Source: Opitutales bacterium (GTDB lineage: Bacteria; Verrucomicrobiota; Verrucomicrobiia; Opitutales; Seribacteraceae). Taken from it: a stretch of DNA of 44,388 bases. The stretch's first letter is position 1. Every line of letters starts with the position of its first letter. Of this stretch, positions 40,428 through 43,071 are shown one piece after another. The notes beneath the pieces were generated by a model, which saw nothing but the letters and a program-made list of their open reading frames with translations, did not search any database and was not told where the DNA came from. A program made the translations under genes and the position numbers. The DNA lies in the NCBI GenBank assembly GCA_029251885.1, contig JAQXCL010000162.1, positions 1 through 44,388 of the forward strand. Reading direction: 5' to 3'.

Positions 40428-41483
40428 ATGATCTATAAAAATTTACTAAGGCCAATTCTATTTTCGCTTGAAGCTGAACGGGCTCACGAAATTGGCAGTG
40501 CTTCCCTTAGGGTTTTAAGTAAGTTTCCTCCAATTCTTAGTTTACTGAGAAATTTGACGCAAGGCACACAAAAACCTGTTGAAGCTTTTGGTCTGCAGTT
40601 TCCCAATGCCATAGGACAAGCGGCTGGTCTTGATAAAGATGGAATGTTTCCAATTGCATCAGAAGCCTTAGGTTTCGGACACATCGAAGTTGGGACCGTT
40701 ACTCCTTTGCCTCAGCCTGGAAACGAAAAACCTAGGCTTTTTCGATTTCCAAATGATTCAGCTTTGGTAAATCGGATGGGTTTTAACAACTTTGGTGCTG
40801 AAGCTCTTCATCATAAAATTTCTAAATCCTTTCCGAAAAGCAATCGACATGTTCCACTCGGGGTAAACTTAGGAAAAGGCAAGCATACTGCGATTGACGA
40901 TGCTCTTATTGACTATTGCAAAGGATTTGATGTCCTTGCCGCTGATGCAGACTACATAACCATCAACATTAGCTCTCCCAACACCCCAAATTTGAGAAAG
41001 CTTCAAGAATCTGAATACCTTGAACCATTGTTGGTCGGAATAAAGAATCACAGGTCAGAATGGTCTAAATTTAATAATGTACCCTCTCCGCCATGTTTAT
41101 TAAAAATTTCTCCTGATGAATCCTACAAGTCCCTTGAGACAATTGTCGCTAAAGCGATGGAAAATAGTTTTGATGGACTAATTGCATGTAACACCTCAAT
41201 CACTCCACCAGCATCAATGTTATCCCAGTCTCTTCCACAAGGGGGAATTAGTGGGAAACCAATAGAAAAAAAGTCAAATGATATGATTAAATTCATTGGC
41301 AAACTTACTGACAATAAATTTCCCGTAATCGGGTCTGGAGGAATATACGATTACGACAGTGCCCAACGAAAGCTCGATGCTGGTGCCGTTCTTTTGCAAA
41401 TTTATACCTCATTTATTTACGAAGGACCGACTTGGCCATATCGTCTTGCAAAGCGAATGCCTCTTGCAAAAGGTTGGTCATAA
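40428..41483 (+). CDS. pyrD: Dihydroorotate dehydrogenase (quinone), class 2
   Basis: Fourth step of UMP synthesis, using FMN and membrane quinone. The 351 residues have the class 2 N-terminal helix region (MIYKNLLRPILFSLEAERAH), then QAAGLDKDGMFP, GTVTPLPQPGNEKPRLFRFP, NRMGFNNFGAEAL and the catalytic serine context INISSPNTPNLRKLQ. FMN-binding GSGGIYDYDSAQRKLDAGA and VLLQIYTSFIYEGPTW complete it. No Shine-Dalgarno sequence. It lies near the pyrC-like gene but on the other strand. Confidence 0.97.
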   Translation: MIYKNLLRPILFSLEAERAHEIGSASLRVLSKFPPILSLLRNLTQGTQKPVEAFGLQFPNAIGQAAGLDKDGMFPIASEALGFGHIEVGTVTPLPQPGNEKPRLFRFPNDSALVNRMGFNNFGAEALHHKISKSFPKSNRHVPLGVNLGKGKHTAIDDALIDYCKGFDVLAADADYITINISSPNTPNLRKLQESEYLEPLLVGIKNHRSEWSKFNNVPSPPCLLKISPDESYKSLETIVAKAMENSFDGLIACNTSITPPASMLSQSLPQGGISGKPIEKKSNDMIKFIGKLTDNKFPVIGSGGIYDYDSAQRKLDAGAVLLQIYTSFIYEGPTWPYRLAKRMPLAKGWS

Positions 41484-41514: not shown

Positions 41515-42486
41515 GTGAAAACATTCTTTTTAATTACTTTTAGCGCTTTAGTAGCAACCTTTTGCCTATCATACTTCATCATGTTTGATGGCAATCCAAT
41601 GCAGCTTAAGAGCTGGTGGCAAGAATTGGCTAGAGATAGTGAAAGTCTTCCTTTTGCTCCTTATAAAACGAGAGTTATTGCAAAACCCTCCATTATTACA
41701 AAAGCTGCTAACCAAGTAATATTAGAGGATCAGCACCTATTTTGGAAAGGCTCTGGTGCAGCATTCAAACCAATATTTCAAAAAGATGGTACAGTTAAGA
41801 GGTTTGTTGTTACATCAAAAGGCCTAAATTATTCTGACTTGGTTTATGCGAGAGTAAGCGGAGCAGGTGCCGATCTTTTTAAACTTGGTAAACCAATCAT
41901 ATCCAAAGGTAGGATCGTTTCACTTCCCTTGAAGAAAACATCCTACTGGCATACGGAGCCTGTTGTTTACGCAGAAGGCGATAAATACCCGTTTAGTGGA
42001 GTTGTGATAAATAAATTCCCAAGTGGGCAAATTATTGAACAAGCCCCTTATTTATCCGGAATGTTACACGGAACACTCAAGAGATGGAACGAATATGGAA
42101 TACCGATGTGCTCAGAAGATTACCTTAAAGGTAAGAAACAAGGAACACACATTTATTGGTTTGACCAAGCAAACGATCCAGATGATTACCAACCGACAAA
42201 AACAAAGAACGGTGAAATTATTCCAACCCTCTGGATCAAGACTCGAGAGGAAGCAAAAGATAAATTCAAAGAGAATTTTGGCAGCCATGAAGCGAACGAA
42301 TGGATTATATTTAAGTACCGTAGTCTAGGCGGGGATTTTCCCGTTAGGTTACTGGAACACTGGCAGGACAATGTACGCCATGGCCTCTTTGAAGGTTTTG
42401 ATAAGTTTGGAAACAAAACATTCAAGGACGAATACAAGAGGGGCCTTCGTATAAAACATAGAATCTTCGATAAAACAAAAGGCTAG
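41515..42486 (+). CDS. Exported or membrane-anchored MORN_2-repeat protein
   Basis: The 323-residue protein begins with a single hydrophobic segment (MKTFFLITFSALVATFCLSY) that could be a signal or anchor. Repeats of the MORN_2/YwqK kind, G-x-x-x-x-F-x-x-G-x-x...-GxxHG, are clear at about residues 162-215 (GVVINKFPSGQIIEQAPYLS, GMLHGTLKRWNEYGIPM, GKKQGTHIYWFD) and again near 285-320 (HGLFEGFDKFGNKTFKDEYK, RGLRI). The start is GTG at 41515, with no Shine-Dalgarno sequence. Role is unknown; such proteins are often cell-surface. The stop codon directly abuts the encoded CCA of tRNA-Leu on the other strand. Confidence 0.7.
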   Translation: MKTFFLITFSALVATFCLSYFIMFDGNPMQLKSWWQELARDSESLPFAPYKTRVIAKPSIITKAANQVILEDQHLFWKGSGAAFKPIFQKDGTVKRFVVTSKGLNYSDLVYARVSGAGADLFKLGKPIISKGRIVSLPLKKTSYWHTEPVVYAEGDKYPFSGVVINKFPSGQIIEQAPYLSGMLHGTLKRWNEYGIPMCSEDYLKGKKQGTHIYWFDQANDPDDYQPTKTKNGEIIPTLWIKTREEAKDKFKENFGSHEANEWIIFKYRSLGGDFPVRLLEHWQDNVRHGLFEGFDKFGNKTFKDEYKRGLRIKHRIFDKTKG

Positions 42487-42571
42487 TGGTGCTCAAGGGG
42501 GGACTCGAACCCCCACGCCTTACGGCACTAGATCCTTAGTCTAGCGCGTCTACCAATTCCGCCACCTGAGC
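42487..42571 (-). tRNA. tRNA-Leu with AAG anticodon
   Basis: Class II cloverleaf on the minus strand: acceptor GCTCAGG/CTTGAGC (one G-U), D region with TGGCGGAATTGGTAGACGC, anticodon stem CTAGA/TCTAG with loop CTAAGGA, so positions 34-36 are AAG (codon CUU, and CUC and CUA if A34 becomes inosine). A long variable arm (GCC GTAA GGC) and T arm GGGGGTTCGAGTCCCCC follow, discriminator A, encoded CCA. A34 in a bacterial leucine tRNA is unusual; bacteria usually have GAG. Upstream a TATAGT-like -10 lies near 42593-42598. Confidence 0.93.
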
Positions 42572-42648: not shown

Positions 42649-43071
42649 TTAAAGTTTCGAAACTTGAATAACCCGACTTTGATCATCGTTGACCCTTATG
42701 GTAATAGATATGTGAACAGCTTCCCGAATAAGTTGAATTGGGCGGACCCACTCCATCAATAAAAGGAACGGGGGATGTAATAGAGGTAATACTTCCTCAT
42801 CGAAAAAATCGTGACTGAATGAATTTCTGTAAAAATCAGAATGAATTACAGTACGACTTCCCTGCTTGAAATTGACAAGACCATAACTAGAACTACAAAG
42901 ATCAAACACATTAAAAAAATTCCCGAAAGAATTACATAAGGAGGTTTTTCCAGCACCCATATTGCCATTTAAGAAAATAATTAGTTTGTCCTTTGCTGTA
43001 TAGTTACAAAAAATGTCTTTTACAATAATTGAATAATCGTCTGTGTAATTTATGAAAGATAAACTATTCAT
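42649..43071 (-). CDS. tsaE: tRNA threonylcarbamoyladenosine biosynthesis ATPase TsaE
   Basis: P-loop ATPase that with TsaB and TsaD makes the t6A modification of ANN-decoding tRNAs. The 140 residues include the Walker A segment FLNGNMGAGKTSLCNSFG (about 33-50), SSSYGLVNFKQ with the family SPT-like switch in altered form, HSDFYR, and the ending box LLMEWVRP (usually EWPE). The SPT-like stretch is divergent, so some change in activity is possible. It overlaps the CPBP gene stop by four bases and lacks its own Shine-Dalgarno sequence, so it is translationally coupled. No tsaB or tsaD is in the window. Confidence 0.85.
   Translation of the reverse strand: MNSLSFINYTDDYSIIVKDIFCNYTAKDKLIIFLNGNMGAGKTSLCNSFGNFFNVFDLCSSSYGLVNFKQGSRTVIHSDFYRNSFSHDFFDEEVLPLLHPPFLLLMEWVRPIQLIREAVHISITIRVNDDQSRVIQVSKL

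Follow-up and report, generated by a model that had tools for sequence, protein, structure and literature searches.

The window, i.e., the whole 44,388-nucleotide stretch that was analysed (contig JAQXCL010000162.1 of the Opitutales bacterium assembly GCA_029251885.1), contains four tRNA genes called by ARAGORN, and one of these is a tRNA-Leu gene with anticodon AAG on the reverse strand at 42487-42571. The gene is 85 nucleotides long with its CCA end encoded, folds into a cloverleaf with a long variable arm, and matches the Rfam tRNA model RF00005 with 56.7 bits at a cut-off of 29. The anticodon arm, CTAGA-CTAAGGA-TCTAG (42528-42544, reverse strand), as given by the sequence and by comparison with relatives, consists of the stem CTAGA/TCTAG and the seven-nucleotide loop CTAAGGA at 42533-42539. 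This loop places A34, A35 and G36 at 42537-42535, with A34 as the complement of the T at 42537. The coordinates, stem, loop and A34 that a first-pass annotation had proposed are thus correct, and the one-base shift in folding that it had considered is unneeded, the seven-nucleotide loop fitting as it stands. On one side of the tRNA lie, on the forward strand, a gene at 40428-41483, which from its sequence we take to be pyrD-like and whose homologue adjoins tRNA-Leu(GAG) in sister lineages, and a gene at 41515-42486 for a conserved protein of 323 amino acids, for which a Pfam search gave no match. On the other side lies a TsaE-family gene on the reverse strand at 42649-43071 (PF02367, 51.8 bits).

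The tRNA-Leu(AAG) is a genuine tRNA, ordinary in form and of a known kind. When 38 genomes were searched with the tRNA itself, the 85-nucleotide gene was found 100% identical in six genomes besides that of the window. The anticodon stem has undergone compensatory changes among relatives, and the loop core is fixed. In an alignment of 25 AAG tRNAs (24 distinct) from many groups, all 552 of 552 stem cells are paired, and 17 of 23 pairs have changed on both sides, compared with a mean of 11.7 after shuffling. The loop core UAAGG is invariant in the same 25 tRNAs, but since the patterns used to choose the rows prescribe part of the D arm and of the loop, the invariance of these columns is partly a result of the choice, which leaves the stem covariation unaffected. 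From the identical copies in six genomes, together with the paired and covarying stems, it follows that the gene is not a chance match.

The assembly to which the window belongs as one contig has 2.18 Mb, 167 contigs, a completeness of 94% and 31 tRNAs; the 27 outside the window were also run through ARAGORN. A34 occurs in only two of the 31, namely tRNA-Arg(ACG) and tRNA-Leu(AAG). The other leucine genes are one with anticodon CAA and one odd, UAA-like gene, and ARAGORN found neither GAG, UAG nor CAG among the 31 tRNAs of this 94%-complete assembly. Since UAG and CAG both occur in relatives, their lack is probably an assembly gap, and since they are missing together with GAG, the absence of GAG from this assembly carries by itself little weight. 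The UAA-like gene (L026, contig C115, 7920-8000) has only six nucleotides (CTAAAA) in its anticodon loop, its D loop is short, and its CCA end is not encoded. No amino acid was assigned to it by ARAGORN, and it may be a pseudogene, a sequence error or an odd tRNA.

The weight of the argument is therefore carried by the relatives. One could suppose that the genome has a tRNA-Leu(GAG) gene in a part missing from the assembly, AAG being an extra isoacceptor, as the fragmented assembly and its missing UAG and CAG genes would allow. Against this stands a survey of 372 genomes of the order with one pattern for AAG and one accepting A or G. In the family of the window (f1), AAG was matched in 29 of 42 genomes and GAG in none, the remaining 13 with neither being uninformative; in a second family (f10) the corresponding numbers are 34 and none of 43, with nine genomes without a match. 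Two further families are mixed. One of the three f18 genomes, all of a single genus, has AAG (G058) and the other two have GAG, and of the seven f28 genomes one has AAG (G165), four have GAG and two have no match. The other 277 genomes of the order gave no further match to the AAG pattern, many of them being known only as positive for the A-or-G pattern and negative for the AAG pattern. Two matches to the AAG pattern (G095 and G262:C2) are not tRNA-like and were judged by eye to be due to chance. ARAGORN called AAG at 20 loci of f1 genomes obtained in the tRNA search, and two further f1 loci (L049, L053) are UAG, in genomes without an AAG match. The better-assembled f1 relatives G015 and G023 have AAG, UAG, CAG and CAA; G007 has AAG, UAG and CAG; and G011 has AAG, with two matches in the tRNA search, together with UAG, CAG, CAA and UAA. 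The single-contig genome G027, from another family of the order, has GAG, UAG, CAG, UAA and CAA. The first-pass annotation had suggested checking that GAG is absent, and at the level of the family, 13 uninformative genomes of 42 notwithstanding, tRNA-Leu(AAG) replaces tRNA-Leu(GAG).

The replacement is also seen in the position of the gene. Downstream of pyrD in the window come the gene for the 323-residue protein and then the tRNA, and the same order of tRNA, 323-residue-protein gene and pyrD is found in G023, which has AAG; G011 keeps the 323-residue-protein gene near its tRNA. A tRNA-Leu gene immediately adjoins pyrD in G076 and G090, where it is GAG, in G058 of the same genus, where it is AAG, and in G027, where it is GAG. 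At the other 12 of 18 loci examined, none of these neighbours was found. Among 80 listed AAG loci from named genomes (of at least 119), eight keep both pyrD and the 323-residue-protein gene, and at a ninth, L236, only pyrD is kept; the titles of these nine, among the matches listed, are Opitutales, Opitutia, Opitutae or Verrucomicrobia. In these lineages the AAG and GAG genes thus share a common place and differ at base 34, and with AAG occupying the position of the GAG gene of sister lineages, a GAG gene hidden in the gaps of the assembly is very improbable.

To see what the replacement would mean for decoding, consider a cell in which the usual tRNA-Leu(GAG) had become tRNA-Leu(AAG) by a change in place from G34 to A34. 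A34 would then be converted to inosine by the single TadA of the cell, the usual substrate of which, tRNA-Arg(ACG), is also present. I34 would read CUU, CUC and CUA, the last of these read also by the separate UAG tRNA of the family, and CUG would be left for the CAG and UAG tRNAs. In most bacteria, A34 of tRNA-Arg(ACG) is edited by TadA, and tRNA-Arg(ACG) and tRNA-Leu(AAG) have U33, A34 and G36 in common, so that nucleotide 35 is the one anticodon nucleotide by which they differ. Replacement in place, with A34 most likely deaminated by the only TadA and with decoding by I34, is the best overall explanation of the AAG gene, the absence of GAG from the family, the position shared with sister GAG genes, the single TadA and the tRNA-Arg(ACG), and we consider it highly probable, the editing and the decoding being the parts that we infer. 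The first-pass annotation was right that an A34 tRNA-Leu calls for either an editing enzyme of wider specificity or decoding of CUU only. Editing is not automatic, since tRNA-Leu(AAG) is reported to be edited by the TadA of S. pyogenes and left unedited by that of E. coli (PMC11472039); a C-terminal extension is there proposed to help the S. pyogenes enzyme. For O. oeni, I34 is reported in the leucine tRNA (PMC8072771).

Suppose instead that A34 stays unedited, so that CUU is read well and CUC, by A:C pairing, weakly, with a U34 tRNA helping on CUC. A modest ability to pair with C is ascribed to unmodified A34 (PMC11066159), the deaminase is described as dispensable in Bacillus subtilis (PMC10454642), and the A34 tRNAs for Thr and Ser of O. 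oeni are reported as unedited (PMC8072771). Among the 1160 leucine codons in the 37 open reading frames of the window, moreover, CUU is the commonest with 352, the others being UUA (343), UUG (180), CUA (116), CUC (107) and CUG (62). CUC is thus in use here, with 107 of 1160, in the absence of a GAG tRNA, and in G125 (completeness 100, two contigs), which by pattern has AAG and no GAG, it is the commonest leucine codon of rpoB (53 of 121). Since an unedited A34 is expected to be poor on CUC, the codon usage of G125 speaks most strongly, if indirectly, for I34. That whole families retain AAG alone, and that the tRNA-Leu(AAG) cases described in the publications at hand (PMC13249217, PMC11472039, PMC8072771) are edited ones, also speaks against an unedited A34, which we regard as unlikely. 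As a sign of I34 decoding, a comparison of rpoB codon usage between AAG and GAG lineages was tried and rejected, the two being alike: in 39 genomes there is no difference in the CUY share (p = 0.79; p = 0.33 after correction for GC3) or in the CUC share against control boxes (p = 0.88). The leucine recoding of the Lactobacillales type, in which CUU and CUC rise with AAG, was not seen in rpoB of these 39 genomes.

The genome of the window encodes one TadA of 168 amino acids, with a single match to PF14437 of 133.1 bits at a cut-off of 27. The N42, HAE and PCxxC motifs are present, with N42, H53 and E55 kept, and the closest solved structures are TadAs; against the TadA equivalog model NF008113 of NCBIfam the protein scores 149.1 bits, 0.9 below the curated cut-off of 150. 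A C-terminal extension of the S. pyogenes type was not found, the protein ending one residue past its alignment with 1Z3A (E. coli TadA) and five residues past that with 2B3J. It may be asked whether a second, dedicated deaminase edits tRNA-Leu(AAG) in place of TadA, and further deaminase-like matches do occur in some AAG genomes outside the family (e.g., G643, G573). The TadA query, however, gives a single match in the genome of the window and in eight of the nine other family members tested, and the second match in the ninth, G014, is weak (E 2e-4), which makes a second enzyme scarcely credible.

Some features of these enzymes were noted in passing. Most TadAs of the order (L286-L328), from AAG and GAG genomes alike, have an N-terminal CPF-K--PS-L motif and a KMG-LGGA loop, unlike the TadAs of E. 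coli and S. aureus. All four TadAs from the small-genome family f28 (L332, L333, L334, L343) have HGE for HAE at the zinc and catalytic motif. Two TadAs of the AAG family f56, L348 (G491) and L351 (G435), are without the stretch that holds N123-H124; N123 of the S. aureus enzyme is reported to contact the 32-38 pair.

If the single TadA has gained tRNA-Leu(AAG) as a substrate, its residues near nucleotide 35 are of particular concern. In S. aureus TadA, residues 44 and 45 are reported to contact the phosphate and ribose of nucleotide 35, and R149 the base G36 (PMC7713142; further contacts are covered in PMC8216470, PMC9643335 and PMC11802342), and the alignment of the protein of the window with the solved S. 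aureus enzyme is gapless between N42 and H53. TadAs were compared from 78 genomes (80 searched, 79 matched, G617 dropped because its match resembles another deaminase). Within the order, T or S at position 44 followed by R45 occurs in eight of ten f1 and ten of ten f10 TadAs, and in none of 25 from lineages without AAG. A pattern search of 80 more genomes, 61 of which matched, gave 18 of 18, 21 of 21 and, for the others, 0 of 22, eight of the f1 and f10 genomes in this search having no AAG match of their own. Pooled over the order, T/S44-R45 is present in 57 of 59 TadAs from f1 and f10 and in none of the 47 others, which come from GAG-type lineages. T44-E45 is the pair in two f1 genomes, both of genus g2. 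In the mixed families, G058 (AAG) has V44-N45 and its GAG sister V44-D45, and G165 (AAG) has V44-R45, as have its GAG relatives. A scan of all 241 variable columns, in which 22 TadAs with AAG were compared with 25 without, puts column 44 first and column 45 second; its p-values take no account of kinship. When each lineage is represented by a single genome (5 against 21, 134 columns, three choices), second place goes to column 45 every time, column 44 comes eleventh, eighth and ninth, and column 34, for which we know of no RNA contact, is first. A TadA tree built without columns 42-48 places f10 together (support 100/99) and f1 together with g2 (87/78), its deep branches remaining open, and gives no sign of a gene shared between the two families.

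R45 does not serve as a general marker of AAG, and beyond the order the link breaks down. The Akkermansiaceae-type family f29, and f33 as well, have AAG with V44-E45, and Lactobacillaceae, Nannocystis and Hydrogenedentota have AAG with R44-E45; conversely, three GAG genomes of f28 and G098 (f27) have R45, and the GAG genome G450 has T44-R45. The TadA structure 2A8N also has T-R at residues 44-45, and its chain is presumably that of Agrobacterium, which we take to carry GAG. As other AAG lineages lack the change and some GAG genomes possess it, the link of T/S44-R45 to AAG is put forward as a hypothesis, and the change may be a local adaptation, not a requirement. Our tentative proposal, to which we give less than an even chance, is that the broadening of TadA to tRNA-Leu has evolved repeatedly in bacteria, in f1 and f10 by one and the same change, from V-E/D to T/S-R, at residues 44-45 of the loop that holds nucleotide 35, and in other lineages, such as the Akkermansiaceae type and Lactobacillaceae, by another route. 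If this is true, the order offers ready-made pairs of enzymes and substrates for working out the specificity of TadA.

Across the phylum, the AAG pattern was matched in at least 50 of 387 genomes, the 50 being the genome of the window, eight of f10, 36 of f29 (same class; probably Akkermansiaceae, to judge by the titles of named genomes) and five of f56. Family f33 also has AAG, in G430, and since the stricter pattern missed it, the counts for the phylum are lower bounds. Among named GTDB genomes, a narrower pattern matched at least 119 stretches, of which 80 loci were taken; ARAGORN called tRNA-Leu(aag) in 79 of these, the remaining match, L223, sitting at a contig end. The matches listed carry titles such as Akkermansiaceae, Roseibacillus, Luteolibacter and Opitutales, and also Synergistaceae, Dethiosulfovibrio, Lacticaseibacillus, Lapidilactobacillus, Myxococcales, Nannocystis, Micavibrio, Planctomycetota, Hydrogenedentota and a Fibrobacter metagenome-assembled genome (MAG). 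Many of the listed genomes are MAGs and may be mis-binned. A Myxococcales MAG (G699) has AAG and a possible GAG gene cut at the contig start, so that either both genes coexist or the bin may be mixed. In the Fibrobacter succinogenes MAG (L201) there are two tandem tRNA-Leu(AAG) genes, 136 bases from start to start. Leucine-like pattern matches that ARAGORN did not call as tRNA (three in G384, one each in G573 and G671, two in G698) were set aside. The expectation of the first-pass annotation that such a tRNA is uncommon outside Firmicutes does not hold, AAG being the usual state in whole Verrucomicrobiota families and present in named genomes of several other phyla.

Within the order, tRNA-Leu(AAG) is found in four families (f1, f10, f18, f28). 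A tree of rpoB was built from 39 genomes: of 45 queried, 41 gave a match, and G643 and G076 were removed because theirs were broken or partial. In this tree, f10 groups with the GAG family f2 (support 97/96), and f1 groups with G058 (91/96), which belongs to the mixed family f18. The distribution of AAG on this tree needs four changes, well supported branches also force four, and the mixed genus g21 adds one more. AAG thus seems to have arisen several times in the order, although fewer gains with losses may also account for the pattern. Our literature search, outside which lay the Rafels-Ybern surveys (2018, 2019), found no report of tRNA-Leu(AAG) in Verrucomicrobia or Akkermansia; the 2018 title of Rafels-Ybern and colleagues reportedly speaks of two bacterial phyla, so that other phyla may have been noticed before. 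According to PMC13249217, almost all bacterial tRNA-Leu(AAG) genes in GtRNAdb belong to Bacilli, Mycoplasma and Prochlorococcus being named besides, and its main text mentions neither Verrucomicrobia nor Akkermansia. The spread is far wider than stated in such literature as was found, and as far as these searches show, the repeated replacement of GAG by AAG across Verrucomicrobiota and the presence of AAG in other phyla are new. With large families in which AAG is usual and with closely related AAG and GAG species (genus g21), there is a natural experiment in which the co-evolution of TadA is testable, and therefore a direct test of how an editing enzyme with one substrate gains a second and of whether recoding follows.

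The closest known systems are the tRNA-Leu(IAG) of Streptococcus, Lactobacillaceae and Oenococcus (PMC13249217, PMC11472039, PMC8072771), the Firmicutes precedent to which the first-pass annotation had rightly pointed. There, as here, AAG replaces GAG, UAG is kept (in the present case with CAG, in relatives), the loop core is U-A-A-G-G and TadA is present. The systems differ in that editing has been published for Streptococcus and Oenococcus and the present case is known from its genes, in that the Verrucomicrobiota order has no shift in rpoB codon usage like the recoding of Lactobacillales, and in that the TadA of the window is without the long C-terminal extension of the S. pyogenes enzyme. 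As the phylum is Verrucomicrobiota, the origin is probably independent of that in Bacilli. Compared with the tRNA-Arg(ACG)/TadA pair of most bacteria, both partners of which the genome has, tRNA-Leu(AAG) has A instead of C at nucleotide 35, and E. coli TadA, as reported, left the S. pyogenes tRNA-Leu(AAG) unmodified (PMC11472039). The likeness to the eukaryotic ADAT2/3, which has reportedly lost residues that contact the loop, among them the ones at 44 and 45 (PMC7713142), would lie in a broadened range of A34 substrates; ADAT2/3 serves several A34 tRNAs, whereas here one TadA gene would serve a single extra one.
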